A stretch of DNA of 64,000 nucleotides from Alistipes sp. An66 (GTDB taxonomy: Bacteria > Bacteroidota > Bacteroidia > Bacteroidales > Rikenellaceae), in assembly GCF_002161445.1 (NCBI RefSeq), contig NZ_NFHT01000004.1, forward strand, positions 62,001-126,000, in the 5' to 3' direction. The notes under the pieces were generated by a model. The model had not been told where the DNA came from, searched no databases, and saw nothing but the letters and a program-made list of their open reading frames with translations. A program made the position numbers and the translations under genes. Positions 35,486 to 51,306 of the stretch are shown one piece after another (positions within the stretch are counted from its first letter, which is position 1; the number at the start of each line of letters is the position of its first letter).

Positions 35486-36403
35486 ATGGAAAAAATCAAA
35501 GGACTGATCGATGCCCCGTTCACGCCGTTCGACCGGAACGGGGATGTAAACTTCGATCCCATTCCGGCCTATGCCGCGATGCTGCACAAGAACGGTCTGA
35601 AAGGCGTCTTCATCAACGGATCCTCGGGCGAGGGCTACATGCTGACGACCGAAGAGCGGATGGCTCTGGCCGAGAAGTGGGTCGCTTCGGTTCCCGAGGG
35701 GTTCAAGGTGATCGTGCATGTGGGCAGCTGCTGCCTGCGCGAGAGTGTGAAGCTGGCGGTCCATGCCGCCGAGATCGGCGCCTGGGGGATCGGTGCGATG
35801 GCACCTCCGTTCCCGAAGATCGGGCGGATCGAGGAGTTGGTCAAGTATTGCGAGGCGATCTGCCATGCGGCGCCGGCGCTTCCTTTCTACTACTACCATA
35901 TTCCGGCCTTCAACGGGGCCTACCTTCCGATGGTCGAGCTGCTGAAAGCCGTGGACGGCCGGATCGACAATTTCGCCGGCATCAAATATACGTTCGAGAG
36001 CCTCTACGAGTATAACCAGTGCCGCCTTTACGGCAATGGCAAGTATGACATGCTGCACGGTCAGGACGAGACGATTCTTCCGAGCCTGGCGCAGGGCGGC
36101 GCGCAGGGCGGCATCGGCGGCACGACGAACTACAACGGACGTGAGCTGGTGGGGATCATCGAGGCCTGGGAGCGCGGCGATTTGGAGACGGCCCGTGAGA
36201 AGCAGAATTTCTCGCAGGCGGTCATCAACGTCATCTGCAACTACCGGGGCAACATCGTCGGCGGCAAGCGGATCATGAAACTCATCGGACTGGATCTGGG
36301 TGAAAACCGGGTTCCGTTCCGCAACATGACCGATGCGGAGGAGGCATCGATGAAACGCGAACTGACGGAGATCGGTTTCTTCGAGCGCTGCAACCGGTTC
36401 TGA
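35486..36403 (+). CDS. nanA: N-acetylneuraminate lyase
   Basis: 305 residues, DHDPS/NAL TIM-barrel family. Carboxylate-binding GSSGEGYMLTTEER, catalytic Tyr in PFYYYHIPAFNG, Schiff-base Lys in NFAGIKYTFES. The extra Tyr and the sequence around it fit NAL rather than DapA. It splits N-acetylneuraminate into ManNAc and pyruvate in the cytoplasm. First gene of the sialic acid operon; the epimerase, transporter and sialidases downstream support this choice. Confidence 0.92.
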   Translation: MEKIKGLIDAPFTPFDRNGDVNFDPIPAYAAMLHKNGLKGVFINGSSGEGYMLTTEERMALAEKWVASVPEGFKVIVHVGSCCLRESVKLAVHAAEIGAWGIGAMAPPFPKIGRIEELVKYCEAICHAAPALPFYYYHIPAFNGAYLPMVELLKAVDGRIDNFAGIKYTFESLYEYNQCRLYGNGKYDMLHGQDETILPSLAQGGAQGGIGGTTNYNGRELVGIIEAWERGDLETAREKQNFSQAVINVICNYRGNIVGGKRIMKLIGLDLGENRVPFRNMTDAEEASMKRELTEIGFFERCNRF

Positions 36404-36438: not shown

Positions 36439-38547
36439 ATGAAAAAACAACTCCTTTGTGCGATCGGTGTTTTCGGCATGATATGCTGGGGCGTGTCGTG
36501 CGGCGATGACGGTCTCGGGACGCCCGACTATTCGAAACCGGCCGAGAACACCATTGCCTTCCGTTGTACGTCGGTATGGGCCGGCGACAACGCTACGCTT
36601 TGGACGGAAGAGAGCCGGATCGGACTCTTCTGTGAGCAGACGGGGTCGGTCAACGAACCGATCGGTGTGGCTGCCATATCGGCCGGCGAGACGGCCGGTC
36701 TGTTCTATACGCAGAAGCCGTGGGAGGACAGGAGCTATCGCTTCTACCTCTATTCGCCCTACAACGAGTCGAGCACGACGACCCGCCTGACGGGATCGTT
36801 GAGTGCCTCGCAGATGCAGAGCGGTGCGACCATGACCCACATCTCCCAACTCGGTCTGACCTATGCCGATTTGGAGGTATCCGCACCGTCGGAGGATCCG
36901 CTTCCGGTGACGATGAAGTCCGTCTTCGGTTACCTCGACATGTCGGTCGAGACGACGAAGTGGGCCGGCTGGAACGTGGAGTCGATCCAGTTGGAGAACC
37001 TCTCCGGGACGGCGATGGCCGGCTCCTACACGTTCGATCTGACGACCGGACAACTCGCATTCGATGCGGATGCGTCCGCGACGGCGCTGCTTCGGCTTTC
37101 CGAGGCCGCTTTGTCGTCGACACCGTTCCATGCCTATGCCATTGTTGCTCCGACGACCGGCACCTCGCAGCGTTTGAAGGTTGTTGTTACGGTGGCGCGG
37201 GCCGATGAATCGGGCATGACCCTGACGGGCGAGCTGTCGCTGCCCGACGGGATCGTATCCGGGGCGCTGACGGCGCTGACGCTTCCGATCGACACGTTCG
37301 AGGAGGAGGAGGTTGAGGACAACTCGGTGGATTTGAGCGATCCCGACGGCGACGGCCAGCACGAGACGGCCAACTGCTACATTGCGGGCGTTGCGGGGCA
37401 GACCTACCGCTTCCCGGCCGATGTCATGGGCAACGGCGCGACGATCCCCGCCACGTCGGATTACGGAGGTGCAGGCCTTGCCAACGGCATCACGCCGACA
37501 CCGCTCACGCCGGCCTCGGCCAAACTGCTGTGGCAGACGGCACCGAACCTGCTGGTGGATGTCAAGCTGCGCGGCACGGAGATCTACTTCACGACCAATG
37601 GCGCCGCCGGGGAGAGCCTCACGGAGGGTAATGCGGTGATTGCGGCGCTCGATGCCTCCGGCAATATCATTTGGAGCTGGCATATCTGGGTCACGTCGGC
37701 CGATCTCGACGCTTCGGTTCAGACCTATGAGCTGCTGCCGGCCTTTGCAGCTGCCGGTACGACGATCCTGATGGACCGTAACCTGGGTGCACTGAAAACG
37801 GGCATGTGGAGCATGAACGAGGACAACCTGGCGCTCGGTCTGCTGTACCAGTGGGGCCGCAAGGACCCGTTCCCGAATATCGACGATGAGAATATAGGCG
37901 GTGGGGGAGCTTTGGCCATCACGCGCCTGCGCAAGACGTACGATGCGGCCGGGAACGTGCTCTCGCCCGACAATACGTCGACGGACCTTTCGGCGGCCTC
38001 GTGGCGCTACATCAACGGCAAGACCCTCTCCGTGGATCAGATTGCCCGCTATCCGATGAACTTCACCTGTGCAAACAACAATTGGCTCGACGAGGCGCAT
38101 GACGATCTGTGGGGCAATCCGTACAGTACGGATGTCGGAGATGTCGGCCAAAAGTCGATCTACGACCCGTGCCCGCCGGGCTACCGCGTCCCGCACCGCT
38201 ATTTCGGAACTCCGTTTACAACGGATGGACAGGCGGCAGGTTCGAGCGCTTCGAATAAGTGGAATGCGCAGTACACGGTTGCGGATGATATCAAAGCCGC
38301 CGGAGGCAATATCTTCTCGTTCGGAAACGGACAGAGCTCCTTCCCGCTTGCCGGCATGTTGTTCCTGAATTCGGGATCGATCGTCCCGTTCCGGACCGGA
38401 CAGTACGTGGGCCATTATCAGGTGAGCATGCCGACTTCCGGTACGACAAAATCCTACCGGTTCTATTTCGATTATGGAAATATTAAACCCGGAGACAGCA
38501 ATGCCCGTTACATCGGCGGCAGCGTCCGTTGCATGAAGATCCAGTAA
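36439..38547 (+). CDS. Fimbrillin-like surface lipoprotein with C-terminal paralogous domain
   Basis: 702 residues. Lipoprotein signal MKKQLLCAIGVFGMICWGVSC (Cys 21). N-terminal half resembles the fimbrillin/Mfa type (YSPYNESS; VTMKSVFGYLDMSVE...). A loop DPDGDGQHET (residues about 299) could bind Ca2+. The C-terminal half has WGRKDPFP, PMNFTC, and YDPCPPGYRVP, a domain common in Bacteroidota surface lipoproteins. In this operon it may be a glycan-binding or adhesion protein, in the place where other loci have SusE/F-type binders. Function inferred from position only. Confidence 0.65.
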   Translation: MKKQLLCAIGVFGMICWGVSCGDDGLGTPDYSKPAENTIAFRCTSVWAGDNATLWTEESRIGLFCEQTGSVNEPIGVAAISAGETAGLFYTQKPWEDRSYRFYLYSPYNESSTTTRLTGSLSASQMQSGATMTHISQLGLTYADLEVSAPSEDPLPVTMKSVFGYLDMSVETTKWAGWNVESIQLENLSGTAMAGSYTFDLTTGQLAFDADASATALLRLSEAALSSTPFHAYAIVAPTTGTSQRLKVVVTVARADESGMTLTGELSLPDGIVSGALTALTLPIDTFEEEEVEDNSVDLSDPDGDGQHETANCYIAGVAGQTYRFPADVMGNGATIPATSDYGGAGLANGITPTPLTPASAKLLWQTAPNLLVDVKLRGTEIYFTTNGAAGESLTEGNAVIAALDASGNIIWSWHIWVTSADLDASVQTYELLPAFAAAGTTILMDRNLGALKTGMWSMNEDNLALGLLYQWGRKDPFPNIDDENIGGGGALAITRLRKTYDAAGNVLSPDNTSTDLSAASWRYINGKTLSVDQIARYPMNFTCANNNWLDEAHDDLWGNPYSTDVGDVGQKSIYDPCPPGYRVPHRYFGTPFTTDGQAAGSSASNKWNAQYTVADDIKAAGGNIFSFGNGQSSFPLAGMLFLNSGSIVPFRTGQYVGHYQVSMPTSGTTKSYRFYFDYGNIKPGDSNARYIGGSVRCMKIQ

Positions 38548-38631
38548 CCGATACCTGTTCCTCCGCCCGGCGTGCCCGGAGACAGCGGCACGCCGGGTCG
38601 GACGGAAACTGCTTCCGTAAAACCCGACAAA

Positions 38632-39813
38632 ATGACTATTCAACAAGAACAATACTTGAAGGATTGCCGCGCTCGCTATGCGGCAGATCTTACGGACAAT
38701 ATCATGCCCTTCTGGATGCGGCACGGTCTCGACCGCGAGCACGGCGGGGTCTATACCTGCGTCGATCGCGACGGCACGCTGATGGATACGACCAAATCGG
38801 TGTGGTTCCAGGGCCGTTTCGGCTATGTATGCGCCTCGGCCTATCGCCATGCGGGAGCCAATCCCGAGTGGCTGGCGGCCTCGAAGAGCGCCTTGGAGTT
38901 CATCGAACGCCACTGCATCGATACCGACGGACACATGTTCTTCTCGGTAACGGCCGAAGGGGCACCGGTTCAGAAGCGGCGCTATGTCTTTTCGGAGTGC
39001 TTCGCGGCCATCGCCATGGCCGAGTACGCCGTGGCTTCGGGCGATTCGCGCTGGGGAGAGAAGGCCGTGGCGATGTTCCGCAATATCCTGCGCATGCTCT
39101 CCACGCCGGGCTTCCTGCCTGCGAAGACCTACACCGAAGCGATCGGACACTCGATCACGATGATCCTGATCAACGTGGCGCTGGTCGTCAAGCAGGTTTC
39201 TGACGATGCGGTGCTCGACGAACAGATCGACCGCTCGGTCGACCTGCTGCGGCGCTGCTTCATGCACCCGGAGTTCGGGACGGTGCTGGAAACGGTTTCG
39301 CCCGACGGCGGCTTCATCGACACCTGCGCCGGCCGGACGATCAATCCGGGCCACTGCATGGAGACGGGCTGGTTCCTGCTCGATGTGGCCCGCCAGCGGG
39401 GCTGGGACCGGCAGCTGGTCGATATGGCCACGACGATCATCGACTGGGCCTGGAAATGGGGCTGGGACGAGACCTTCGAAGGCATGATCAACTTCCGGGA
39501 CTGCCGGAATTTCCCGCCGCAGGACTATTCGCAGGACATGAAGTTCTGGTGGCCGCAGTGCGAGACGATCCTGGCAGGACTTTACGCCTACATAGCCACG
39601 GGTGACGAGAAATATCTGGCCATGCACCGCAAGGCGCATGATTACGCCTTCCGGGTCTTCCCCGATGCCGAATATGGCGAGTGGTATGGTTACCTGCACC
39701 GGGACGGTACGGTAGCGCAGCCGGCCAAGGGCAATCTTTTCAAGGGTCCGTTCCACATTCCGCGCATGATGATCAACGCCACGCGGCTGTGCGACGAAAT
39801 TCTGAACAAGTAA
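38632..39813 (+). CDS. AGE-family N-acylglucosamine 2-epimerase (NanE role)
   Basis: 393 residues from ATG 38632; (alpha/alpha)6 barrel family. Visible family motifs: WMRHGLDREHGGVYT near residue 24, VWFQGRFGYVCA, ECFAAIAMAEYA, INPGHCMETGWFLL (catalytic His) and WWPQCETILAGLYAY, with a second His in the C-terminal GPFHIPRM. It probably converts ManNAc to GlcNAc, as the NanE of Bacteroides fragilis does. This would complete lyase-to-epimerase flow in the operon. Confidence 0.88.
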   Translation: MTIQQEQYLKDCRARYAADLTDNIMPFWMRHGLDREHGGVYTCVDRDGTLMDTTKSVWFQGRFGYVCASAYRHAGANPEWLAASKSALEFIERHCIDTDGHMFFSVTAEGAPVQKRRYVFSECFAAIAMAEYAVASGDSRWGEKAVAMFRNILRMLSTPGFLPAKTYTEAIGHSITMILINVALVVKQVSDDAVLDEQIDRSVDLLRRCFMHPEFGTVLETVSPDGGFIDTCAGRTINPGHCMETGWFLLDVARQRGWDRQLVDMATTIIDWAWKWGWDETFEGMINFRDCRNFPPQDYSQDMKFWWPQCETILAGLYAYIATGDEKYLAMHRKAHDYAFRVFPDAEYGEWYGYLHRDGTVAQPAKGNLFKGPFHIPRMMINATRLCDEILNK

Positions 39814-39834: not shown

Positions 39835-41079
39835 ATGAAAACTGAAAACAAGTGTATGTACCGGGCGACGCTGGTGGCCGGCCTTTTGCTGATGCTTCCC
39901 TGCGCGCTTTCGGCCTGTGGCGACGACGAGATCCAACGTCCCGCGGTGACGGCCCCGCTGATGCCCGACCTGGGTCCGGAGGCCACCGAAGGAACGATCA
40001 GTCTCTCGCAGATCGAGACCTCGACCCCCTTTACGGCGGGTACGGGAGCCAATTCCTATCGTATTCCTTCGATCGTGACGGCCGGCGACGGTTCGCTGCT
40101 GGTCTTCTGTGAGGCCCGCCACGAGTCGTGGATGGACAAGAGCCATACGGATATTGTGGTCCGCCGCAGTACGGACAACGGCCAGACCTGGTCGGAGGCC
40201 GTGAACCTGACCGCTTCGGCCAATGGGGGCGGCTATGCCTTCATGGACCCGACGCCGGTCGTCGATTCCGGGACGGGCAAGATCTTCCTTTTCTGCTGCC
40301 GGTGGGTGAAGTCCGATGCCGACGCGACGAAGAACCGGGCGTTCCGGATCGTGTCGACGGACAACGGCAAGAACTGGGGCGCCCCCGAGGATGTCACCGA
40401 GCAGGTGATCCGCACGGGCTATTTCAGCTCGGGTTTCGGTCCGGGCTCGGGGATCCGGATCTCGCAGGGCAAGTATGCGGGTCGTCTGGTTTTCGCGTCG
40501 CGTCAGTATGACGGCTCGTCGAGCACGGGCGTGGCCGTTTATTCGGACGACCACGGTGTTACGTGGAAGATCGGATCGGAGGTGCTGGGCGGCGAGTGCC
40601 AGATCGCCGAATCGGGCGAGAACCGGCTGACGATCAACATCCGCAAGGGTGCGGACCGTTACTCCGCGACGTCGAAGGACGGCGGGCAGTCCTGGTCTTC
40701 GGCCCTCAAGGATGCGGGCCTTCCCTCTTTCACGAGCGGGTGCCATGCCAGCGTGCTCGGGGTGGGCGGCAACATGGTCCTCTATTGCGGTCCGAAGGGC
40801 GGCACCCAGACCTCCTCGAACGACAACCGCTCCGAACTGATGCTCTACCGCAGTGCGACGAGTGCCGAGGGTTGGACCCGCAGTCAGTTGCTTTATGAAC
40901 TGGCGGCCGGCTATTCGGACATGACGCAGCTTCCGGACGGTCGCGTGGCGATCGTCTTCGAGGCGGGGCCCGAGAAGGGATTCACGCGTCAGGGCGGGAA
41001 TCGTCCGGCGGGGTGGATGCGTCTCGACGTGCTGGTACTTCCCAAGGAGGTGACCGATTACGGCTATTGGTTTGAATAA
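39835..41079 (+). CDS. GH33 sialidase, lipoprotein
   Basis: 414 residues with a lipoprotein signal (LLLMLPCALSAC, Cys 28). Six-bladed propeller features: the YRIPSIV arginine motif, Asp-boxes STDNGQTW, STDNGKNW, SDDHGVTW and SKDGGQSW, and the nucleophile region AGYSDMTQLPDGRVAIVFEAG (Tyr and Glu). Later arginines occur in GIRISQG and GGNRPAGW. Hydrolyses terminal sialic acids at the cell surface. It lies 20 bp after the epimerase gene. Confidence 0.9.
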   Translation: MKTENKCMYRATLVAGLLLMLPCALSACGDDEIQRPAVTAPLMPDLGPEATEGTISLSQIETSTPFTAGTGANSYRIPSIVTAGDGSLLVFCEARHESWMDKSHTDIVVRRSTDNGQTWSEAVNLTASANGGGYAFMDPTPVVDSGTGKIFLFCCRWVKSDADATKNRAFRIVSTDNGKNWGAPEDVTEQVIRTGYFSSGFGPGSGIRISQGKYAGRLVFASRQYDGSSSTGVAVYSDDHGVTWKIGSEVLGGECQIAESGENRLTINIRKGADRYSATSKDGGQSWSSALKDAGLPSFTSGCHASVLGVGGNMVLYCGPKGGTQTSSNDNRSELMLYRSATSAEGWTRSQLLYELAAGYSDMTQLPDGRVAIVFEAGPEKGFTRQGGNRPAGWMRLDVLVLPKEVTDYGYWFE

Positions 41080-41098
41080 CCTGAAACAACAAGAAATC

Positions 41099-44000
41099 AT
41101 GGAAAAACTATTCCGACGCAATACAATCCGAATGATGCTGGCGCTGCTGGCGTTGTTCTCGATCGCCGTAGCGGGCGCGCAGTCCCGGTTTACGGTAACA
41201 GGTAAGGTTTCCGACGCTTCCGGCGCCCCGATGGCCGGCGTGACGATCATCGAACAGGGAACCACCAACGGCACGACCACGAACGTGGACGGGACCTATT
41301 CGCTGACCGTCAAGGACAGCAGGAGTGCTCTTATTTTCAGCTCGTTGGGCTATACGTCGCAGACGATTGCCGTGGGAGCCAAGAATGAGATCAACGTCTC
41401 TATGGAGGAGGATGCGATCAGCATGAGTGAGGTGGTGGTCACGGGTTACGGACGGACGGTGACGAAGGACAAACTGACGGCCGCCATCTCGAAAGTCTCG
41501 GGCGAGGTTCTTGAAAAGGGCGTCCGGGCGAATGCCCTGACGGCACTGGCCGGAACGGTGACCGGTGTCCGGGTCGCTACGACGACCGGCCAGCCCGGAG
41601 CGGCGCCGTCGATCGTCATCCGCGGAGGAGCTGCGCTCGACGGTACGGGATCTCCGCTTTACGTGATCGACGGCGTTCAGAAGGATGACATGAACGACAT
41701 CAACGCCAACGACATCGAGTCGATCGAGATCCTGAAGGATGCCGCCGCCACGGCGCTTTACGGCGCCCGGGCCAACGCGGGTGTGGTTCTGGTGACCACC
41801 AAGCGCGGCCGGGTCGGTCGTTCCGAGATCTCGTTCAAGGCGAACGTCGGTCTGAACTACCTGCGCAAGACGAACGAATTCCTCGAAGCCGACGACTATC
41901 TCTACTACCTGCGTCTGGCCTCCTATCGTTCGGGGAATATCGCGGCTCTTTCGGCGGCGGGTCCGTTCGGAACGGGCAACGATCTGGCGGCTGATGGAAA
42001 CCAGTCGGCCGCCGGCGTATACAGTCCGATGTTTCTGTCCGATGAGAATGCCTACCTGCTGAAACAGGGCTACAAGAGCATGGTCGACCCGATCACGGGC
42101 AAGACGATCATTTACAGCGAATTTACCGCGAGCGACGCATCGGTTCGGGATCTGGCGCTCACCCAGGACTACAACATCTCGGCCTCGGGCGGCAACGAGC
42201 GGGGACGTTATTACACCAGTCTGGGCTACTACGACGAGTCGGGTTTCCCGGTGATTTCGTACTACAACCGTCTGTCGTTCGTGACCAACGGCTCCTACAA
42301 GATCACGCCGTGGCTCGAATCGACCAGTTCGCTGAACTTCTCGCGTTCGGACAGCCGCCAGGTGAGCGACTACATCGGCGGCGGCGAGGCCAACTTTTTC
42401 GGTATCATGTTCTCGGCGCCCCCGACGATGCGCCGCTACAACCCCGACGGCGACGAGATCATCCCGACGACCAACTGGGAGAACGGCAACTGGGATGCCG
42501 CACAGGACAGCTTCTACCGTCGGAACACGAACTACCGCTTTACGATGAATCAGGGGCTGAACTTCAAGCTGACGGATCACATCACGCTGAAACTGAACGG
42601 TATGTGGTACTTCAACATGTATGAGAAGGAGAAGTTCAACCGCACCTATCTGGTCAATCCCGGCACCTACAACAGCGACCATGCCGCTTCGGCCAGCTAC
42701 TCCCGGATGTTGTCGCAGACCTACAATGCGATTGCCGGATATGAGAATTCGTGGAACGACCACAATTTGAGCGTGATCGTCGGTTACGAGTTCTACGACA
42801 AGTACAACTTCGGGCTGTCGGCCGGCGGCCAGGGCTCCGATTTCGAGGATTTCCCGAGCCTGGGCTATATCGACAAGACCGAGGATAAGAACATCTCCAA
42901 GATCAGCATGAACTCGACGCATACGCGCGAGCGCAGCATGTCGTTCTTCGGCAACGCCAGCTACGACTGGAAGGGCAAATACCTCTTCTCGTTCTCGGCG
43001 CGCTACGACGGCTATTCGAAACTGGTGAACAACAAGTGGGGCTTCTTCCCGGGCGTGAGCGCCGCATGGAACCTCCACAAGGAGAAATTCATGGAGGGGA
43101 CGTCGCGGTGGCTGTCGAGCCTGAAACTGCGAGCCGGTTACGGACAGAACGGTAATGTGAACATCCTGGCCGGTCCCTATGACTTGCAGGGCAACTACGG
43201 CAAGACGGGCAACTACGAGGATGAGTACGGCATTCTGATCAACAAACTTCCCTATCCGGACCTGTTGTGGGAGAAGACCACGTCGGTTGATGTGGCCGTT
43301 GAGGCGAGCTTCTGGAACCGCCTGCGAGTCTCTGTCGGCGCTTACAACAAGCTCACGTCGGATCTGTTGGCCGAGGTTCCCTTCCCCAGCTCGGCGGGTG
43401 TGGGCAACCAGTACACGAACAACGGCAGCGTCCGCAACCGCGGTTTGGAGTTCGAGTTCGAGTCGACGCTCTTCCAGAACAAGGACTGGAAGGTACAGTT
43501 CGGCGGTAATGCGACCTACATGCGGTCGAAGATCATCCAGCTGCCGGACAACGGCAATCTGAACAACCGCCAGGGCGGCCAGCAGGTCTACAATGCGGCC
43601 GGTGATCTGGTTTGGGTCGGCGGCAAGCAGGAGGGACAGGAGTACGGCGTGGCGTATGCCTACCGGATGGTGGATATTGTCCGCAGCGATGCCGACCTGT
43701 TGAATTATGCATGGTATGTGGATACGACGCCGGCTTCGGGCACGATCTACGGTCCGGGCGTATGGGCGACGCTGACGGCTGACGAGCAGGCGAAGGGCCA
43801 GCTGCTCCAACCCGGCGATGCGGTCTTCTACGATGTCAACGGCGACAACAAGATCGACCAGTACGACCAGGTGAAGATGGGCAATACGGTTCCGCGATGG
43901 GTCGGCGGTATGAATCTTTCGGTCGACTGGAAGGGTCTTTCGCTCTATGCGCGGTTTGATTTCGCGACGGGCTACGTGGCCCAGAACAGCCGCAAACAGT

Positions 44001-44374
44001 ACTACATGGCGCTGTCGCAGGGTACGTTCAACACGTTGAAGGAGAGCAAGGACACGTGGTCGGAGTCGAATCCGAACGCCACGTACCCGATTCTGATGTA
44101 TGCGGATACGAAGTTCCGGAACAACTACCGCATGAGCAACATTTTCTACGATGATTCGAGCTATCTCTGCGCCCGAGAGATATCGCTGACCTACACGCTG
44201 CCCGAGAAGTGGGCCCGCGTCGTTCGGATGAAGAACCTGTCGGTTTCGGTGACGGGTCAGAACCTCTTCTACTGGACGGGCTCCTCGCTTTACAATCCGG
44301 AATACGGAGTGAACGGGAACGGCGGATATGCGATTCCGCGCACGGTTCTTTTCGGTGTGAAGGCGACATTCTAA
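41099..44374 (+). CDS. SusC-family TonB-dependent receptor (sialic acid outer membrane transporter)
   Basis: 1091 residues. Signal peptide, then a carboxypeptidase-regulatory-like domain (FTVTGKVSDASGAPMAGVTI), a TonB-box-like EVVVTGYG, the plug (APSIVIRGGAALDG, PLYVIDGVQ) and a 22-strand barrel ending in VLFGVKATF. In Bacteroides the homologous role is called NanO: uptake of Neu5Ac with its SusD partner. An earlier ATG (41072) overlaps the sialidase stop; 41099 is the better start. Confidence 0.93.
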   Translation: MEKLFRRNTIRMMLALLALFSIAVAGAQSRFTVTGKVSDASGAPMAGVTIIEQGTTNGTTTNVDGTYSLTVKDSRSALIFSSLGYTSQTIAVGAKNEINVSMEEDAISMSEVVVTGYGRTVTKDKLTAAISKVSGEVLEKGVRANALTALAGTVTGVRVATTTGQPGAAPSIVIRGGAALDGTGSPLYVIDGVQKDDMNDINANDIESIEILKDAAATALYGARANAGVVLVTTKRGRVGRSEISFKANVGLNYLRKTNEFLEADDYLYYLRLASYRSGNIAALSAAGPFGTGNDLAADGNQSAAGVYSPMFLSDENAYLLKQGYKSMVDPITGKTIIYSEFTASDASVRDLALTQDYNISASGGNERGRYYTSLGYYDESGFPVISYYNRLSFVTNGSYKITPWLESTSSLNFSRSDSRQVSDYIGGGEANFFGIMFSAPPTMRRYNPDGDEIIPTTNWENGNWDAAQDSFYRRNTNYRFTMNQGLNFKLTDHITLKLNGMWYFNMYEKEKFNRTYLVNPGTYNSDHAASASYSRMLSQTYNAIAGYENSWNDHNLSVIVGYEFYDKYNFGLSAGGQGSDFEDFPSLGYIDKTEDKNISKISMNSTHTRERSMSFFGNASYDWKGKYLFSFSARYDGYSKLVNNKWGFFPGVSAAWNLHKEKFMEGTSRWLSSLKLRAGYGQNGNVNILAGPYDLQGNYGKTGNYEDEYGILINKLPYPDLLWEKTTSVDVAVEASFWNRLRVSVGAYNKLTSDLLAEVPFPSSAGVGNQYTNNGSVRNRGLEFEFESTLFQNKDWKVQFGGNATYMRSKIIQLPDNGNLNNRQGGQQVYNAAGDLVWVGGKQEGQEYGVAYAYRMVDIVRSDADLLNYAWYVDTTPASGTIYGPGVWATLTADEQAKGQLLQPGDAVFYDVNGDNKIDQYDQVKMGNTVPRWVGGMNLSVDWKGLSLYARFDFATGYVAQNSRKQYYMALSQGTFNTLKESKDTWSESNPNATYPILMYADTKFRNNYRMSNIFYDDSSYLCAREISLTYTLPEKWARVVRMKNLSVSVTGQNLFYWTGSSLYNPEYGVNGNGGYAIPRTVLFGVKATF

Positions 44375-44395
44375 TCAGACAAAAAAACAAGAACG

Positions 44396-45928
44396 ATGAA
44401 ACGGATCAAATTACATATTCTCCTGCTGGTCGGCGCGCTGACAGTTTCGTGCAATGCGCTGGAACTGGGTCCGGAGGACTTCTATTCGATCAACAACTAT
44501 TGGAATTCCGAGGAACAGTGCGAGCGCTTCATGATCGGGTTGCATTACCGCGTTCGGGAGCGTGCCGAGACGTTCTGGCTGATGGGCGAGAGCCGCGGCG
44601 GACTGCTCAACACGGCGTCGGTGACCTCGACGGGGGAAGGCGCCTACAATATCGAGGCGGTGACCAACAACCTCTCGGAGGCGAACCCGGTGCTGACCAA
44701 CTGGGGCAACTTCTATATGGACATCTACCAGATCAACCATGCGATCGACAAGCTCACGACGGCCTGCGAGTTTCTGGACGACGAGACCCGCAACACCTAC
44801 CTGGGCCAGCTCTACGGGCTGCGTGCGTTCTACTATTTCCACATGCTTCGCACGTGGGGCGGGGTTCCGCTCTGCGACAAGCCGGACGTGCTGATGACCA
44901 GCGACATAGCCCAGTTGAGCAAGGAGCGGGCGACGGAACAGGCGACGTGGCAGTTCATCCGCGACGATGTGGATCGTTCGTGTGAGATCTACGACAAGCT
45001 GGACTTCGGGAACTTCAAGAGCCGCAACTGCTATTGGAACAAGGCGGCGTCGTACTGCCTGAAAGCCGAGGTTTACCTGTGGGGTGCGAAGGTCCGTCCG
45101 TTGAAGGGTTCGACGGTTTTCTCGGCGACGCCCGAAGCGGATCTGGAAGCCGCCCGCACGGCCTTGCAGACGGTGGAGCCGCTCTACTCCTATAACGCGA
45201 AGTTCATCGACGCCTTTTCGCCGACGAACAAGGATGCGAACCGCGAGACGATCTTTGCCCTTCGCTTCAAGCTGGGAGAGAAGACCAACTACTATTCGAA
45301 CTTCACCTATAACGTGGCGACCTTCACGAAGTGGTACGATGCCGAAGGCAACAAGATGGGCAACGTGCTGGACATCGGCAGCGGAGCGATGCGTTACGAG
45401 TACAAGCTGGACTTCTACGGCGAACTGGCTGCGACGGACACGCGCCGGGACGCCACGTTCCTGCCGTTCTACGAGATGAATAGCGAGAGTGAACTGCAAC
45501 TGGCGGGCCTTGTGCTGCGCAAGTTCCTGGGCGAGACGAGCAACGGGCGCGTGCAGTATACGAACGATGTTCCGGTCTACCGCTATATGGACGTGGCGCT
45601 GATGCTGGCCGAGATTGCGAACGCGCTCAACGACCCCACGGAGGTTGAGCGGTGGATTGGCCGGGTTCGTACGCGGGCCTACGGCTCCGAGGCTCCGGCG
45701 TTCACCTATACGACTGCGGAGGCGGCCGAGGAGGCGATTCTGGCCGAGCGGAATGCCGAATTCGTGGCCGAAGGCAAGCGTTGGTACGATGCCCGCCGCA
45801 TGCTGGACGGCAAATATGCCCTGGAACTGGTCGGCGGCAACGAGTTGAAGCTGGTCTGGCCGATCGACGCGGGTGTGCTGTCGAAGGACAACAAGGTCAA
45901 ACAGAATGAAGGATATGTGACGGAATGA
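44396..45928 (+). CDS. SusD-family glycan-binding lipoprotein
   Basis: 510 residues. Lipoprotein signal (LLLVGALTVSC, Cys 19), helical TPR-like body with the family motifs LYGLRAFYYFHMLRTWGGVPL and AEIANALND, and the C-terminal LAERNAEFVAEGKRWYDARRM, all diagnostic of SusD. Binds glycan at the cell surface and closes the SusC pore; corresponds to NanU. It overlaps the next gene by 4 bp (ATGA). Confidence 0.93.
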   Translation: MKRIKLHILLLVGALTVSCNALELGPEDFYSINNYWNSEEQCERFMIGLHYRVRERAETFWLMGESRGGLLNTASVTSTGEGAYNIEAVTNNLSEANPVLTNWGNFYMDIYQINHAIDKLTTACEFLDDETRNTYLGQLYGLRAFYYFHMLRTWGGVPLCDKPDVLMTSDIAQLSKERATEQATWQFIRDDVDRSCEIYDKLDFGNFKSRNCYWNKAASYCLKAEVYLWGAKVRPLKGSTVFSATPEADLEAARTALQTVEPLYSYNAKFIDAFSPTNKDANRETIFALRFKLGEKTNYYSNFTYNVATFTKWYDAEGNKMGNVLDIGSGAMRYEYKLDFYGELAATDTRRDATFLPFYEMNSESELQLAGLVLRKFLGETSNGRVQYTNDVPVYRYMDVALMLAEIANALNDPTEVERWIGRVRTRAYGSEAPAFTYTTAEAAEEAILAERNAEFVAEGKRWYDARRMLDGKYALELVGGNELKLVWPIDAGVLSKDNKVKQNEGYVTE

Positions 45929-48600
45929 AAGTTGGGTTCAAGCATATCCGAAGCGTGATGCTGCTGCTGACGGGGTGCTTCGGCATCCTGTCGGCAGGGG
46001 CTCACGTGAAGCGTGCGGAGGTGTACAATGCCTGCGTCCCGGTGGTTCTGGACCGCACGCATAACGTTGTGGCGGAGTTCTGTATCGAACACGACGGTGT
46101 TTCTCCGGCGCGGCTCGACGGGATCGAGGTGCGCCTCGGGGGGCTGTCGTCGGGCGAGGTCCGGAGCGTTCGGCTGCTCTACACGGGGACGATGTCGGCC
46201 CTGCTGTCGCGCTCGACCTCCTACGCCATGCGGGACGCGTTCCGACGCCTGGGCGGCGGGCAGCGTCTCTATGCGGATCCGGGCTACGCGATCGAGCAGG
46301 ATGTCGTGACTCCGGGCACCGGCGATCGTCTGTCGCTGACTTCGGGCCGACAGCTGGTCAAGGGACGCAACTATTTCTATGTGAGCGTTGAAACCGACAT
46401 CGAGCGGCTCGGGGATCTCTCCCGCCCCTTTACGTTGGAGGTTACGGGGATCCGGGTGAACGGCGAATCCGTGGCTTTCGCCTCGTCGGGCAGCACGACC
46501 CACCGGTGGGGCGTTTCGGTCCGCCAGCACGGCGACGACGGGATCTATGCCTACCGCATTCCGGGACTGGTCACGACCCCGTCGGGTACGCTGCTGGGGG
46601 TCTACGACGTGCGGCACCGCACGAGTCTCGACTTGCAGGAGCACATCGACATCGGATTGAGCCGCAGTACGGACGGCGGCCGCACGTGGGAACCCATGCG
46701 GATCATCATGGACATGGGGGAGTGGGGCGGTCTTCCGGAGTCGCAGAACGGCATCGGCGATCCCTCGATACTGGTGGATGACCGCACGGGTGCGGTTTTC
46801 GTCGTGGCGGCATGGACCCACGGTCTGGGCAACAACCGGGCGTGGACGTCCGTAGGTCAGGGATATGATCCGATCGAGACGGCGCAGCTGATGCTTGCCA
46901 GCAGCCGTGACGACGGGCGGAGCTGGTCCGCACCGCGGAATCTCACGCGGCAGATCAAGCAGCCGCATTGGTATTTCACGTTGCAGGGGCCGGGGCGCGG
47001 CATCACGATGCGCGACGGTACGCTGGTCTTTCCGATCCAGTATATCGACTCGACGCGGGTCCCGAATGCGGGCGTGATGTACAGCCGCGACCACGGCAAG
47101 ACGTGGCACACGCACGGCCATGCGCGGAGCAACACGACCGAATCGCAGGTAGCCGAGGTGGCCCCCGGGGTCCTGATGCTCAACATGCGGGACAACCGCC
47201 GGACGGGGCGTGCCGTCTGCACGACCCGCGACATGGGCCGCACGTGGGTCGAGCACCCCTCGTCGGGCTGTCTGCGCGAGCCGGTCTGCATGGCGTCGCT
47301 GCTGCATGTTCCGGCTTGGGAGAACGCATTGGGGCGGGACCTGCTCCTTTTCTCGAATCCGGATACGACAAAGGGTCGCAACCATCTGACCATCAAGGCG
47401 AGCCTCGATGGCGGAGACACCTGGCTCGCGGAGCATGCGCTGCTGCTCGACGAGGAGGAGAACTGGGGATACTCGTGCCTTTCGATGATCGACCCCGAGA
47501 CGGTCGGCATTCTCTATGAGTCGAGTGCGGCGCAGCTGCTGTTCCAGGCCGTCAAGCTGCGCGACATCATCCGCGAACTCCCGGAATCGGGGGCCGTTTT
47601 CGAGCCGCTGCCCGAGATCGGGCCGTGCGATGCCGGTTTTGCGCAGGGTGTTTCTGCGCTGTGCGCCGGTGAGGTCTCCGGGACGCTGATTGCCGCCGGC
47701 GGGGCCAATTTTGCGGAGACGCCGGCTGCCGAAGGGGGTGCCAAATGTTTTTATGACGGTATCTGGACGCTGCGCGGCTTGCGGGAAGGAAAACCGGTGT
47801 GGCGGTCGGCCGGGCATCTGCCCGAGCCGATGGCCTACGGCATGACCTGGCAGCTCCCCGACGAGCTGATTGTTGCCGGCGGGGCCAATGCCTCGGGACC
47901 GTTGCGTCGGGTGCTGTCGCTCCGTCCGCGGGGCGGCAAGGTCGTGGTGCGGAGCCTTCCGGACCTGCCTTTTGCCGTCGAGCAGGGTGCGGCGGCCTCC
48001 GATGGCGGCGTGCTCTATCTGGTCGGGGGGCTGGTCGACGGGAAACCCTCGTGCGAGGTCCTCGCCTGCGACATGGGCTCCGGCGCCCGGACCTGGCAAT
48101 CGCTTCCGCCGCTTCCCGAACCGTTCGTTCAGCCGGTGGCGTTCGCCTCGGCGGGTCGGCTCTATGTCTGGGGCGGCTTCGATCCTGCGGAACGCCGCGT
48201 GGCCGATCATGGCTATTGCTGCGATCCGGCGACGGGCCGCTGGGAACGTATTGCAGGGCTTCCCGACGGCGGGACGATGACCGGCTCGGCCGGCGTGAAG
48301 CTTGCCGACGGCCGGCTGCTGGTGGCGGGCGGTGTCGACCGGGCGATCTTCTCGGCGGCGCTGGGCCTGCCAGCGGATCAGATGCGCGACTACCTGTCGC
48401 AGCCGCCTGCGGCGACCCGTTTCCGGAACGTACTCTGGCTCTTCGACCCGACGACCGGAGCGTGGAGCCAGGCGGGAATTTCGGGTCGTGCGGCACGGGC
48501 CGGGGCGGCTCTTGTCGCGACGTGTGACGGAGCAGTGATGTTGGGCGGCGAGACCCGTCCCGGGATCCGCACGTCCCGGGTGTGGCGGATCGACCTTTGA
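45925..48600 (+). CDS. GH33 sialidase fused to a NanM-like kelch mutarotase
   Basis: 891 residues. Signal peptide (about 1-26), then a beta domain before the catalytic part (about 27-190), then the GH33 propeller: YRIPGL at 210-213, Asp-boxes STDGGRTW, SRDDGRSW, SRDHGKTW, TRDMGRTW and SLDGGDTW, and WGYSCLSMIDPETVGILYE (nucleophile Tyr and Glu near 513-530). From about residue 555 to the end a second propeller of kelch type follows (LIAAGGANFAETPAA, ELIVAGGANASG, LYLVGGLVDG, LYVWGGFDP, LLVAGGVDRA, VMLGGETRPG), matching the cyclically permuted mutarotase family of NanM. GH33 retaining enzymes release the alpha anomer; NanM converts alpha to beta Neu5Ac. So both steps are on one chain. Confidence 0.9.
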   Translation: MKVGFKHIRSVMLLLTGCFGILSAGAHVKRAEVYNACVPVVLDRTHNVVAEFCIEHDGVSPARLDGIEVRLGGLSSGEVRSVRLLYTGTMSALLSRSTSYAMRDAFRRLGGGQRLYADPGYAIEQDVVTPGTGDRLSLTSGRQLVKGRNYFYVSVETDIERLGDLSRPFTLEVTGIRVNGESVAFASSGSTTHRWGVSVRQHGDDGIYAYRIPGLVTTPSGTLLGVYDVRHRTSLDLQEHIDIGLSRSTDGGRTWEPMRIIMDMGEWGGLPESQNGIGDPSILVDDRTGAVFVVAAWTHGLGNNRAWTSVGQGYDPIETAQLMLASSRDDGRSWSAPRNLTRQIKQPHWYFTLQGPGRGITMRDGTLVFPIQYIDSTRVPNAGVMYSRDHGKTWHTHGHARSNTTESQVAEVAPGVLMLNMRDNRRTGRAVCTTRDMGRTWVEHPSSGCLREPVCMASLLHVPAWENALGRDLLLFSNPDTTKGRNHLTIKASLDGGDTWLAEHALLLDEEENWGYSCLSMIDPETVGILYESSAAQLLFQAVKLRDIIRELPESGAVFEPLPEIGPCDAGFAQGVSALCAGEVSGTLIAAGGANFAETPAAEGGAKCFYDGIWTLRGLREGKPVWRSAGHLPEPMAYGMTWQLPDELIVAGGANASGPLRRVLSLRPRGGKVVVRSLPDLPFAVEQGAAASDGGVLYLVGGLVDGKPSCEVLACDMGSGARTWQSLPPLPEPFVQPVAFASAGRLYVWGGFDPAERRVADHGYCCDPATGRWERIAGLPDGGTMTGSAGVKLADGRLLVAGGVDRAIFSAALGLPADQMRDYLSQPPAATRFRNVLWLFDPTTGAWSQAGISGRAARAGAALVATCDGAVMLGGETRPGIRTSRVWRIDL

Positions 48601-48623
48601 ACCGATAACCGAAAGTGAGAATC

Positions 48624-49868
48624 ATGAAAAACGCAAAATTGCAGAAATACTATCCCTGGATCGTCGTCTGCCTGCTGTGGGTTGTGGCGCTGCTGAATTA
48701 CATGGATCGGCAGATGCTCTCGACGATGCGCGAGTCGATGCAGGTCGACATCTCCGAACTGGAATCGGCCGTCAATTTCGGGCGTCTGATGGCCATTTTC
48801 CTCTGGATCTACGGACTTGTGAGTCCCGTTGCCGGCGCCGTTGCCGACCGGATCAGCCGCAAATGGCTGATTGTCGGATCGCTCGGCGTCTGGTCCGCGG
48901 TGACGCTGCTGATGGGCTACTCGACGACCTTCTCGCAGATCTACTGGCTGCGGGCCCTGATGGGCATCAGCGAAGCGCTCTATATTCCGGCGAGCCTTTC
49001 GCTGATTGCCGATTACCACACGGGCAAGGCGCGGAGTTTTGCCATCGGCATCCACATGACCGGACTCTACGTCGGCCAGGCAGTCGGCGGTTTCGGAGCG
49101 ACGGTTGCTTCGATGTTCTCCTGGCAGGCGACCTTCCACTGGTTCGGCATCATCGGCATCGCCTATGCCGTCGTGCTGATCTTCTTCCTGCATGAGAACC
49201 GCGAATCCCGACCTGTGGCTGTTCCTGCCGCCGAGCGTCCGAAGAGCGATCTTTCGGTTTGGCGCAGTTTCGGGCTGTTGCTTTCGAACATCGCCTTCTG
49301 GGTCGTTCTTTTCTATTTCGCCTCGTCGTCGCTGCCCGGCTGGGCCACCAAGAACTGGCTTCCGACGCTCTTTGCCGAGAGCCTCGGGGTTCCGATGTCC
49401 TCGGCCGGACCGATCTCCACGTTCACGATCGCCTTTTCGTCGTTCCTGGGCGTGATGATCGGCGGGCCGCTTTCCGACCGGTGGGTCAAACGCAACCTGC
49501 GGGGACGCATCTACACGAGCGCCATCGGCCTCGGACTGATGGTTCCGGCACTGGTGCTGCTGGGTCTCGGACACGGCACGTTTGCCGCGGTGGGTGCGGG
49601 CCTTTGCTTCGGCGTGGGCTACGGCATGTTCGATACGAACAACATGCCGATCCTGTGCCAGTTCGTTCCGGTCCGCCAGCGCGCGACAGCATATGGAATC
49701 ATGAACATGACCGGCGTATTTGCCGGTGCGGCCTGTACCGAGGTCCTGGGCCGCTGGGCGGACGGGGGCAACCTCGGGCTGGGTTTCGCACTGCTGGGCG
49801 GTGTGATTGCCGTGGCGCTGCTCATCCAGCTCTGCGTGCTCAAACCGACGACCGACAACATGGAGTGA
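48624..49868 (+). CDS. MFS transporter (sialic acid permease, NanT role)
   Basis: 414 residues, 12 membrane helices. MFS signature between helices 2 and 3 (GAVADRISRKW) and again in the second half (GGPLSDRWVKR); ALLNYMDRQML in helix 1 is typical of the anion:cation symporter group. Its position between the sialidase fusion and the ROK regulator, in a locus with no other inner-membrane carrier, makes it the probable Neu5Ac symporter. Start at ATG 48624. Confidence 0.88.
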   Translation: MKNAKLQKYYPWIVVCLLWVVALLNYMDRQMLSTMRESMQVDISELESAVNFGRLMAIFLWIYGLVSPVAGAVADRISRKWLIVGSLGVWSAVTLLMGYSTTFSQIYWLRALMGISEALYIPASLSLIADYHTGKARSFAIGIHMTGLYVGQAVGGFGATVASMFSWQATFHWFGIIGIAYAVVLIFFLHENRESRPVAVPAAERPKSDLSVWRSFGLLLSNIAFWVVLFYFASSSLPGWATKNWLPTLFAESLGVPMSSAGPISTFTIAFSSFLGVMIGGPLSDRWVKRNLRGRIYTSAIGLGLMVPALVLLGLGHGTFAAVGAGLCFGVGYGMFDTNNMPILCQFVPVRQRATAYGIMNMTGVFAGAACTEVLGRWADGGNLGLGFALLGGVIAVALLIQLCVLKPTTDNME

Positions 49869-50052: not shown

Positions 50053-51306
50053 ATGGCAAGAGAATATACCACCGGAGTATCGGAACGTACCGTCCGCGGA
50101 GCGGTCCGCAGCAGCATCATGCAGCACATCATGCAGAACGGCACCTTCATGGTTCCCGAGATAGCCACGGCGACGGGATTCAGCCTGACGACCATTGCCA
50201 AGTATGTTTCGGAGATGCTTGCCGCGGGGCAGATCATCGAGATGGATCGTATCTGCCTGCATGCGAAGGGTCGCCGTACGGTGCGTTACGGCGTGCAGCC
50301 CGAGGCCTGTCCCTGCTTCATGGGGGTCGACATGCGAGCCTTCGAGCTCAACATCGGGCTGGTGGATTTCGTGGGCCAGCCCGTGCGTATCGAACGCTAT
50401 ACGGACTTTCGGCTCGAAAACACGCGCGGGACGCTCGACGAGGTGTGCCATCGTATCCAGCAATTCATCTCCGGCCTCGACGGCATGGCTCCGGAGCGTA
50501 TTGCCGGGATCAATATCAATGTTCCGGGTCGGGTGAACAGCCGGACGGGGACGAGTGCCACGACGTTCAATTTCGAGGAGACGGTCGACACTCCTCTGAC
50601 CGATATTTTGAGCGAGCGGCTCGGGATGCGGGTTTTCATCGAAAACGATACCAAGGCCATGGCCTACGGAGCCTACATGTCGGGGTTCAACAAGCAGTAC
50701 GACGATCTGCTTTACATCAATATCGGCTGGGGTCTTGGGCTGGGCATCATTATCGACGGGAAGCTTTGCCACGGGAAGGACGGCTACTCGGGGGAATTCG
50801 GCCACATCCACATGTACAACAACAATATTCTGTGTCATTGCGGCAAGACGGGCTGTATCGAGACGGAGGTTTCGGGTCGGGCGATCCAGCGCAAGCTTCT
50901 CGAACGGATCCGGTCGGGAGAGGCGTCGCTTCTTGCGTCGAAGGTTTGCCGCGGGGAGGTTGTGACCACGGCCGATATCATCGATGCCGTGGAGCGGGAG
51001 GATCCGCTCTGCATCGAGCTTGTGATGCAGGCGGGGAGTGAACTGGGCCATCATATTGCGGGACTGATCAACATTTTCAATCCCGAGGTTATAGTCATCG
51101 GCGGCAATCTTGCGCAGGCCGAGCCGTGCTATTTTCTGCAACCGATCGAACTTGCCGTCCGGAAATATTCGCTCAAACTGATGAGCCAGAATGTATCGAT
51201 CATCACCCATCCGAGCGGAGCGGATGCCGCGGTTCTCGGGGCGTGTCTGATAGCGCGCAGCCGGGTGGCGGAATCAGAAGCAGCGCCACTTCGAATAAAG
51301 ACCTGA
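50053..51306 (+). CDS. ROK-family transcriptional regulator of the sialic acid locus
   Basis: 417 residues. N-terminal winged helix (about 20-80: GTFMVPEIATATGFSLTTIAKYVSEML), then a ROK sugar-kinase-like fold with the signature region GEFGHIHMYNNN and zinc motif CHCGKTGC. The first phosphate motif of active ROK kinases (DxGxT) reads GVDMRAFELNIG, so kinase activity is doubtful and a NagC/Mlc-like repressor role is more likely. The effector could be ManNAc, GlcNAc or a 6-phosphate. Own promoter and upstream terminator separate it from the operon. Confidence 0.85.
   Translation: MAREYTTGVSERTVRGAVRSSIMQHIMQNGTFMVPEIATATGFSLTTIAKYVSEMLAAGQIIEMDRICLHAKGRRTVRYGVQPEACPCFMGVDMRAFELNIGLVDFVGQPVRIERYTDFRLENTRGTLDEVCHRIQQFISGLDGMAPERIAGININVPGRVNSRTGTSATTFNFEETVDTPLTDILSERLGMRVFIENDTKAMAYGAYMSGFNKQYDDLLYINIGWGLGLGIIIDGKLCHGKDGYSGEFGHIHMYNNNILCHCGKTGCIETEVSGRAIQRKLLERIRSGEASLLASKVCRGEVVTTADIIDAVEREDPLCIELVMQAGSELGHHIAGLINIFNPEVIVIGGNLAQAEPCYFLQPIELAVRKYSLKLMSQNVSIITHPSGADAAVLGACLIARSRVAESEAAPLRIKT

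Follow-up and report, generated by a model that had tools for sequence, protein, structure and literature searches.

A sialidase joined to a circularly permuted NanM homologue in a predicted sialic acid utilisation locus of Alistipes sp. An66

Why would a bacterium encode a sialidase and a homologue of the sialic acid mutarotase NanM on a single polypeptide, and what might such a protein do? This question is raised by a gene in a 64,000-nucleotide stretch of the Alistipes sp. An66 genome (contig NZ_NFHT01000004.1, positions 62,001 to 126,000), hereafter called the window. The fusion itself is confirmed, with domain match scores far beyond chance. We consider it likely that the product is a secreted bifunctional enzyme of a sialic acid (nan) polysaccharide-utilisation locus, which would cleave sialosides and equilibrate the alpha-N-acetylneuraminic acid (alpha-Neu5Ac) that is set free. 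The gene and its parts are the following:

45925..48600, + strand: sialidase-mutarotase fusion gene, 891 amino acids, one uninterrupted open reading frame (Pfam and NCBIfam domains)
45925..46005, + strand: predicted signal peptide, residues 1-27, type I by eye; no lipobox cysteine in the orthologues
46018..46464, + strand: BNR_assoc_N/CBM93-type domain, residues 32-180 (PF14873, E = 9e-13), aligned to the N-terminal domain of NanH
46522..47574, + strand: GH33 sialidase propeller, residues 200-550, with R211, D236, E406, R422, R485 and Y516
47575..47607, + strand: short linker, residues 551-561; in the other fusions the junction differs by no more than one or two residues
47608..48597, + strand: circularly permuted NanM-type mutarotase domain, residues 562-891 (TIGR03548, PF24996, 2UVK, structure model)
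48550..48570, + strand: E876 and R882, the equivalents of NanM E209 and R215 (GGETRPGIRT aligned with NGEAKPGLRT)

Two propellers on one chain

The sialidase half matches the Pfam models BNR_2 (E = 3e-27), BNR_3 (E = 2e-22) and BNR_assoc_N (E = 9e-13), the last of these corresponding to the N-terminal domain that has been named CBM93 in the Tannerella forsythia sialidase NanH (PMC9472817). Residues 33-550 align with NanH itself (7qy9; phmmer, E = 2.6e-188), other Bacteroidales sialidases match too, and identity to related sialidases is about 55%. Five canonical Asp boxes (at residues 248, 327, 387, 434 and 493), a YRIP motif at 210 and the full-length match to solved GH33 sialidases mark this half as a GH33 propeller of the NanH type. 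In the alignment, R211, R422 and R485 correspond to the NanH arginine triad (R212, R423 and R487) and D236 to the acid/base residue D237; the 7qxo chain, in which D237 is changed to Ala, aligns its altered position with D236. These four residues are invariant among the aligned sequences, as are Y516 and E406, which form the Tyr/Glu pair. Judged by its family, this half presumably acts as a retaining sialidase.

The C-terminal half carries six kelch GG motifs (at residues 592, 652, 701, 750, 802 and 874), as expected of a complete six-bladed propeller, and AlphaFold2 predicts for it a nearly all-beta structure with the kelch-propeller fold (mean predicted local distance difference test score, pLDDT, 95.8; predicted template modelling score, pTM, 0.93). 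Both halves are also formed in a model of the whole protein (pLDDT 84.5, pTM 0.72). The NANM family of Pfam (PF24996) is matched at 117.2 bits, beyond its gathering cut-off of 45, and TIGR03548 almost from end to end (residues 574-886 on model positions 2-322 of 323; 209 bits, E = 8.3e-62). The relation to Escherichia coli NanM is obscured by a circular permutation: fusion residues 678-890 align with NanM 3-223, and a query that was re-cut at the permutation point aligns with 2UVK from 3 to 330 and retrieves 2UVK as its top match. A foldseek search of the PDB with the mutarotase model returned generic six-bladed kelch domains, with no NanM in the top 50; we attribute this absence to the permutation, since the permuted sequence query finds 2UVK first. 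When the window sequence was the only query, a search of genome contigs retrieved nothing closer than distant kelch proteins. In the alignment with 2UVK, NanM Glu209 and Arg215 fall on E876 and R882. Both NanM residues are reportedly required for activity, a finding said to go back to Severi et al. in 2008. The pair is present in 36 of 37 homologues and in all complete fusions. By these alignments the C-terminal half is a circularly permuted NanM homologue with both catalytic residues, and its family membership points to Neu5Ac mutarotase activity.

What the initial annotation had proposed from the sequence is supported in part. The following points hold up: a complete GH33 propeller with five Asp boxes, YRIP and a Tyr/Glu region, a complete kelch propeller with six blade motifs, the union of both on one chain, which recurs in five further genomes, and SusC/SusD genes next to the fusion, to which an adjacent MFS (major facilitator superfamily) transporter can now be added. 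It had also recommended comparing the C-terminal half with NanM structures and named a lack of the active-site residues as grounds for giving the idea up; the permuted alignment with 2UVK shows both residues in place. Its term "NanM-type" is apt for a homologue with the catalytic pair, but has to be qualified for a domain that is circularly permuted and scores under the TIGR03548 cut-off. To that earlier picture we can add three features: the CBM93-type domain at the N-terminus, the circular permutation with respect to E. coli NanM, and the presence of another sialidase gene in the operon.

Distribution and descent of the fusion

Our survey covered 268 genomes of the same family, 393 of the order and 395 of the phylum. 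Both halves lie in one frame in five family genomes besides the window (G052, G495, G552, G556 and G554, the last interrupted by a contig end), and all six fusion-bearing genomes, the window included, belong to one genus. The fusion was not seen among the genomes of the order or of the phylum; plasmid and viral collections yielded no fusion either. The five other proteins are 55-59% identical to the window protein over the whole match and share its neighbours and operon order (nanA, epimerase, surface-type sialidase, NanO/NanU SusCD, fusion, MFS transporter). The junction is likewise common, with 7-8 linker residues from the sialidase end to the first mutarotase strand. A sialate-esterase homologue is included in the sibling fusion loci. 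One further candidate, G606, was rejected as a fusion: two genes are split by a stop, and the mutarotase is without the catalytic pair.

In other families the mutarotase occurs alone, 22 base pairs behind a sialidase, or fused to a GDSL/SASA esterase or a sodium:solute symporter. The second arrangement, in which a sialidase gene is followed on the same strand by a distinct gene for the permuted mutarotase (G305; L074, 7536-10487), is an order from which a fusion of this kind could arise. A mutarotase behind a GDSL/SASA sialate-esterase-like protein was found in two other Bacteroidales families (G159 and G205; L075, 180-3311, and L082), and mutarotase-symporter fusions, in which the mutarotase domain is N-terminal, at 12 different loci; in another member of the class, a sialidase adjoins a mutarotase-symporter gene. 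The window genome itself encodes a permuted mutarotase with the Glu/Arg pair fused to a sodium:solute symporter on another contig (C18 of G000; L069, 10174-12753), within a second nan-type locus that comprises SusC/D, a GntR-type regulator, NanA and GH33. Elsewhere, a mutarotase homologue beside a sialidase (L113, 545-1618) has Asn at both catalytic positions and is probably inactive or functionally altered.

Could the fusion be an artefact, or could it have arisen more than once? Relatives with separate adjacent genes (G305, G606) would be compatible with a sequencing or assembly error, or with a recent, meaningless loss of a stop codon. However, five more genomes carry the fusion at 55-59% identity with a common junction and common neighbours, and the ratio of nonsynonymous to synonymous substitutions (dN/dS) is low in both halves. 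We regard this explanation as highly improbable; for the group taken together it has been refuted. When close orthologues of the fusion are compared, dN/dS amounts to 0.14-0.17 for the mutarotase half and 0.05-0.10 for the GH33 half; both halves are therefore kept by purifying selection. Two separate fusion events are a tenable alternative to a single one: in the mutarotase tree the window half groups with the solo protein of G564, a genome of the same genus (support 100/99), apart from the long branch on which the other fusions lie. On the other side, all six fusions fall into a single clade in the tree of the sialidase halves (support 100/100), junction and synteny are common, and a single clade of all fused mutarotases was not rejected (p-AU, from the approximately unbiased test, 0.20). 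Because junction and neighbours agree, we prefer the simpler reading, in which the fusion arose once and some lineages later lost it or underwent recombination.

The nan locus and the predicted location of its enzymes

Domain searches identified a NanO/NanU SusCD pair, NanA, an epimerase, a transporter and a sialidase around the fusion, the components of a nan polysaccharide-utilisation locus:

35486..36403, + strand: nanA-like lyase (DHDPS family; PF00701), conserved in the other fusion loci
36439..38547, + strand: fimbrillin-like protein, 702 amino acids (PF13149), conserved at 38-40% in the fusion loci
38572..39813, + strand: N-acylglucosamine 2-epimerase (PF07221)
39835..41079, + strand: second GH33 sialidase, predicted surface lipoprotein (PF13088, E = 1.8e-33; lipobox)
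41072..44374, + strand: SusC/NanO-type TonB-dependent transporter (Plug and TonB barrel domains)
44396..45928, + strand: SusD/NanU-type lipoprotein (NF033072 NanU, E = 2.4e-83, under the model cut-off, 281 versus 425)
48615..49868, + strand: MFS transporter, likely the inner-membrane Neu5Ac importer (PF07690)
50053..51306, + strand: ROK/NagC-type regulator (PF00480 and NagC model)

The genes from 39835 to 49868 are tightly packed, and the end of the SusD-type gene overlaps the start of the fusion by 4 base pairs. The MFS transporter gene adjoins the mutarotase in loci with and without the fusion. A fimbrillin-like protein lies inside the nan operon at every fusion locus whose contig stretch reaches that position.

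The two sialidases of the operon appear to be sorted differently. The second one carries Cys-Gly-Asp-Asp-Glu at its lipobox, and Cys-Ser-Glu-Glu is found in its orthologues; since the Bacteroidetes lipoprotein export signal is a short acidic motif directly after the cysteine (PMC5080379), which these residues resemble, the enzyme is probably placed at the cell surface. The fusion has a plain signal peptide, as do its orthologues, and this suggests a soluble, periplasmic protein that would act after outer-membrane import. A chance-looking LTGC within the signal of the window copy is absent from the orthologues.

Proposed role and comparison with known systems

GH33 sialidases release alpha-Neu5Ac, which converts slowly to the beta form (about 90% at equilibrium), and E. 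coli NanM accelerates this conversion in the periplasm and may aid the transporter NanT (PMC10017367). Transport has been suggested to favour the beta form, and NanM may also relieve the inhibition of sialidases by alpha-Neu5Ac (PMC8141875). In our reading, the lipidated sialidase would work at the cell surface, NanO/NanU would import sialosides or sialo-oligosaccharides, and the GH33 half of the fusion would cleave alpha-linked Neu5Ac from them in the periplasm with retention, yielding alpha-Neu5Ac. The permuted NanM-type propeller would then open and re-close the ring, so that the product quickly reaches its mostly beta equilibrium. The benefit of fusion might be that mutarotase is always present, at a fixed ratio of 1:1, at the place where alpha-Neu5Ac is formed, and faster equilibration could speed uptake by the MFS transporter and lift inhibition of the sialidase. 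The straight hand-over of the product to uptake that the initial annotation proposed is a hypothesis, and mutarotation would aid uptake even without channelling between the two sites. A stronger version, in which the mutarotase propeller takes alpha-Neu5Ac in cis as it leaves the sialidase site, relieves product inhibition and feeds beta-Neu5Ac to the transporter, and in which the domain was coupled several times in evolution, independently, to an adjacent step of the pathway (sialidase, esterase or transporter), is doubtful; if true, it would mean that a glycosidase is coupled with a mutarotase in one tandem enzyme.

Two other roles for the kelch half have to be weighed against mutarotation of Neu5Ac. 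It might be a non-catalytic module for glycan binding or dimerisation that helps the sialidase bind its substrate: ligand binding without catalysis is common among kelch propellers, the top foldseek matches are binding kelch domains, and the kelch half has evolved more quickly than its GH33 partner. Yet E876 and R882 are kept in each complete fusion and in all but one of the 37 homologues, the catalytic region of NanM is absent from generic kelch proteins (PMC8141875), and the locus is a nan locus; foldseek is moreover unable to align circularly permuted folds over their full length, so the missing NanM says little. We therefore regard a purely binding role as unlikely. Much the same holds for activity on another sialic acid or keto-sugar, such as ketodeoxynononic acid (KDN), N-glycolylneuraminic acid (Neu5Gc) or O-acetylated forms, in place of Neu5Ac. 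The fused domains are divergent (about 42% for the window versus L070), KDN is also acted on by NanM (PMC8141875), and the esterase homologue of the sibling loci would fit such substrates, but the presence of NanA, epimerase and NanO/NanU homologues in a nan operon is in keeping with Neu5Ac being the chief substrate, and we give this alternative little credence.

Several observations weigh against a bifunctional, periplasmic Neu5Ac enzyme. The TIGR03548 score of 209.2 bits (212.7 in another search) lies below the curated cut-off of 243.2, so that the mutarotase half is not a formal member despite its full-length match. Four genomes of the same genus are without the fusion and have a standalone mutarotase between epimerase and transporter, with 66% (G564), 57% (G566), 52% (G546) and 50% (G547) identity to the window half. 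The periplasmic placement is a prediction from signal sequences, and NanH of T. forsythia, which is closely related and has been characterised, has been called secreted (PMC9472817). Finally, loss of nanM in E. coli lowers the growth rate by at most about 20% (PMC3658417), and the benefit of the fusion may therefore be modest.

While the importance of sialic acid mutarotation in the gut is unsettled and the effect of E. coli NanM modest, the fusions of the mutarotase to sialidase, esterase and transporter are evolutionary evidence that ties mutarotation to the step from release to uptake; of wider interest is the idea that three distinct adjacent steps of the pathway have each been joined to this one domain. 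The fusion also offers a single protein in which point mutants could directly address the questions of anomer and product inhibition. A search of the open-licence literature, where most subscription papers are missing, turned up no account of a sialidase fused to a mutarotase. The fusion is a rare new domain arrangement, built from known parts in a known pathway, rather than a new kind of system.

These parts can be followed through their relatives. Sialidases of the T. forsythia NanH or Bacteroides thetaiotaomicron type (GH33 with CBM93) share about 55% identity, the N-terminal domain and the catalytic residues with the fusion, but stop after the propeller at about 540 residues, where the mutarotase comes next in the fusion. 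E. coli NanM/YjhT (2UVK, PF24996) is likewise an exported six-bladed kelch propeller with a catalytic Glu/Arg pair, encoded in a nan operon; it is a free homodimer, whereas the fusion domain is permuted, with the catalytic motif at its extreme C-terminus, and joined to a sialidase. Closer in layout are the cyclically permuted Bacteroidales mutarotases of TIGR03548, which have the permuted order, the full-length match, the catalytic motif and the nan loci in common with the window domain; they usually have a gene of their own, of about 410 codons, or a symporter or esterase as fusion partner, and the window domain differs in its sialidase partner and its sub-threshold score. The mutarotase-symporter and GDSL/SASA esterase-mutarotase fusions likewise link this domain with a step next to it in the pathway, but through a partner other than a sialidase. 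Finally, the O-acetylesterase/sialidase fusion of Bifidobacterium bifidum (PMC10017367) also joins a sialidase to another sialic acid-processing enzyme; its partner is an esterase that acts before cleavage, whereas the mutarotase described here would act after it.

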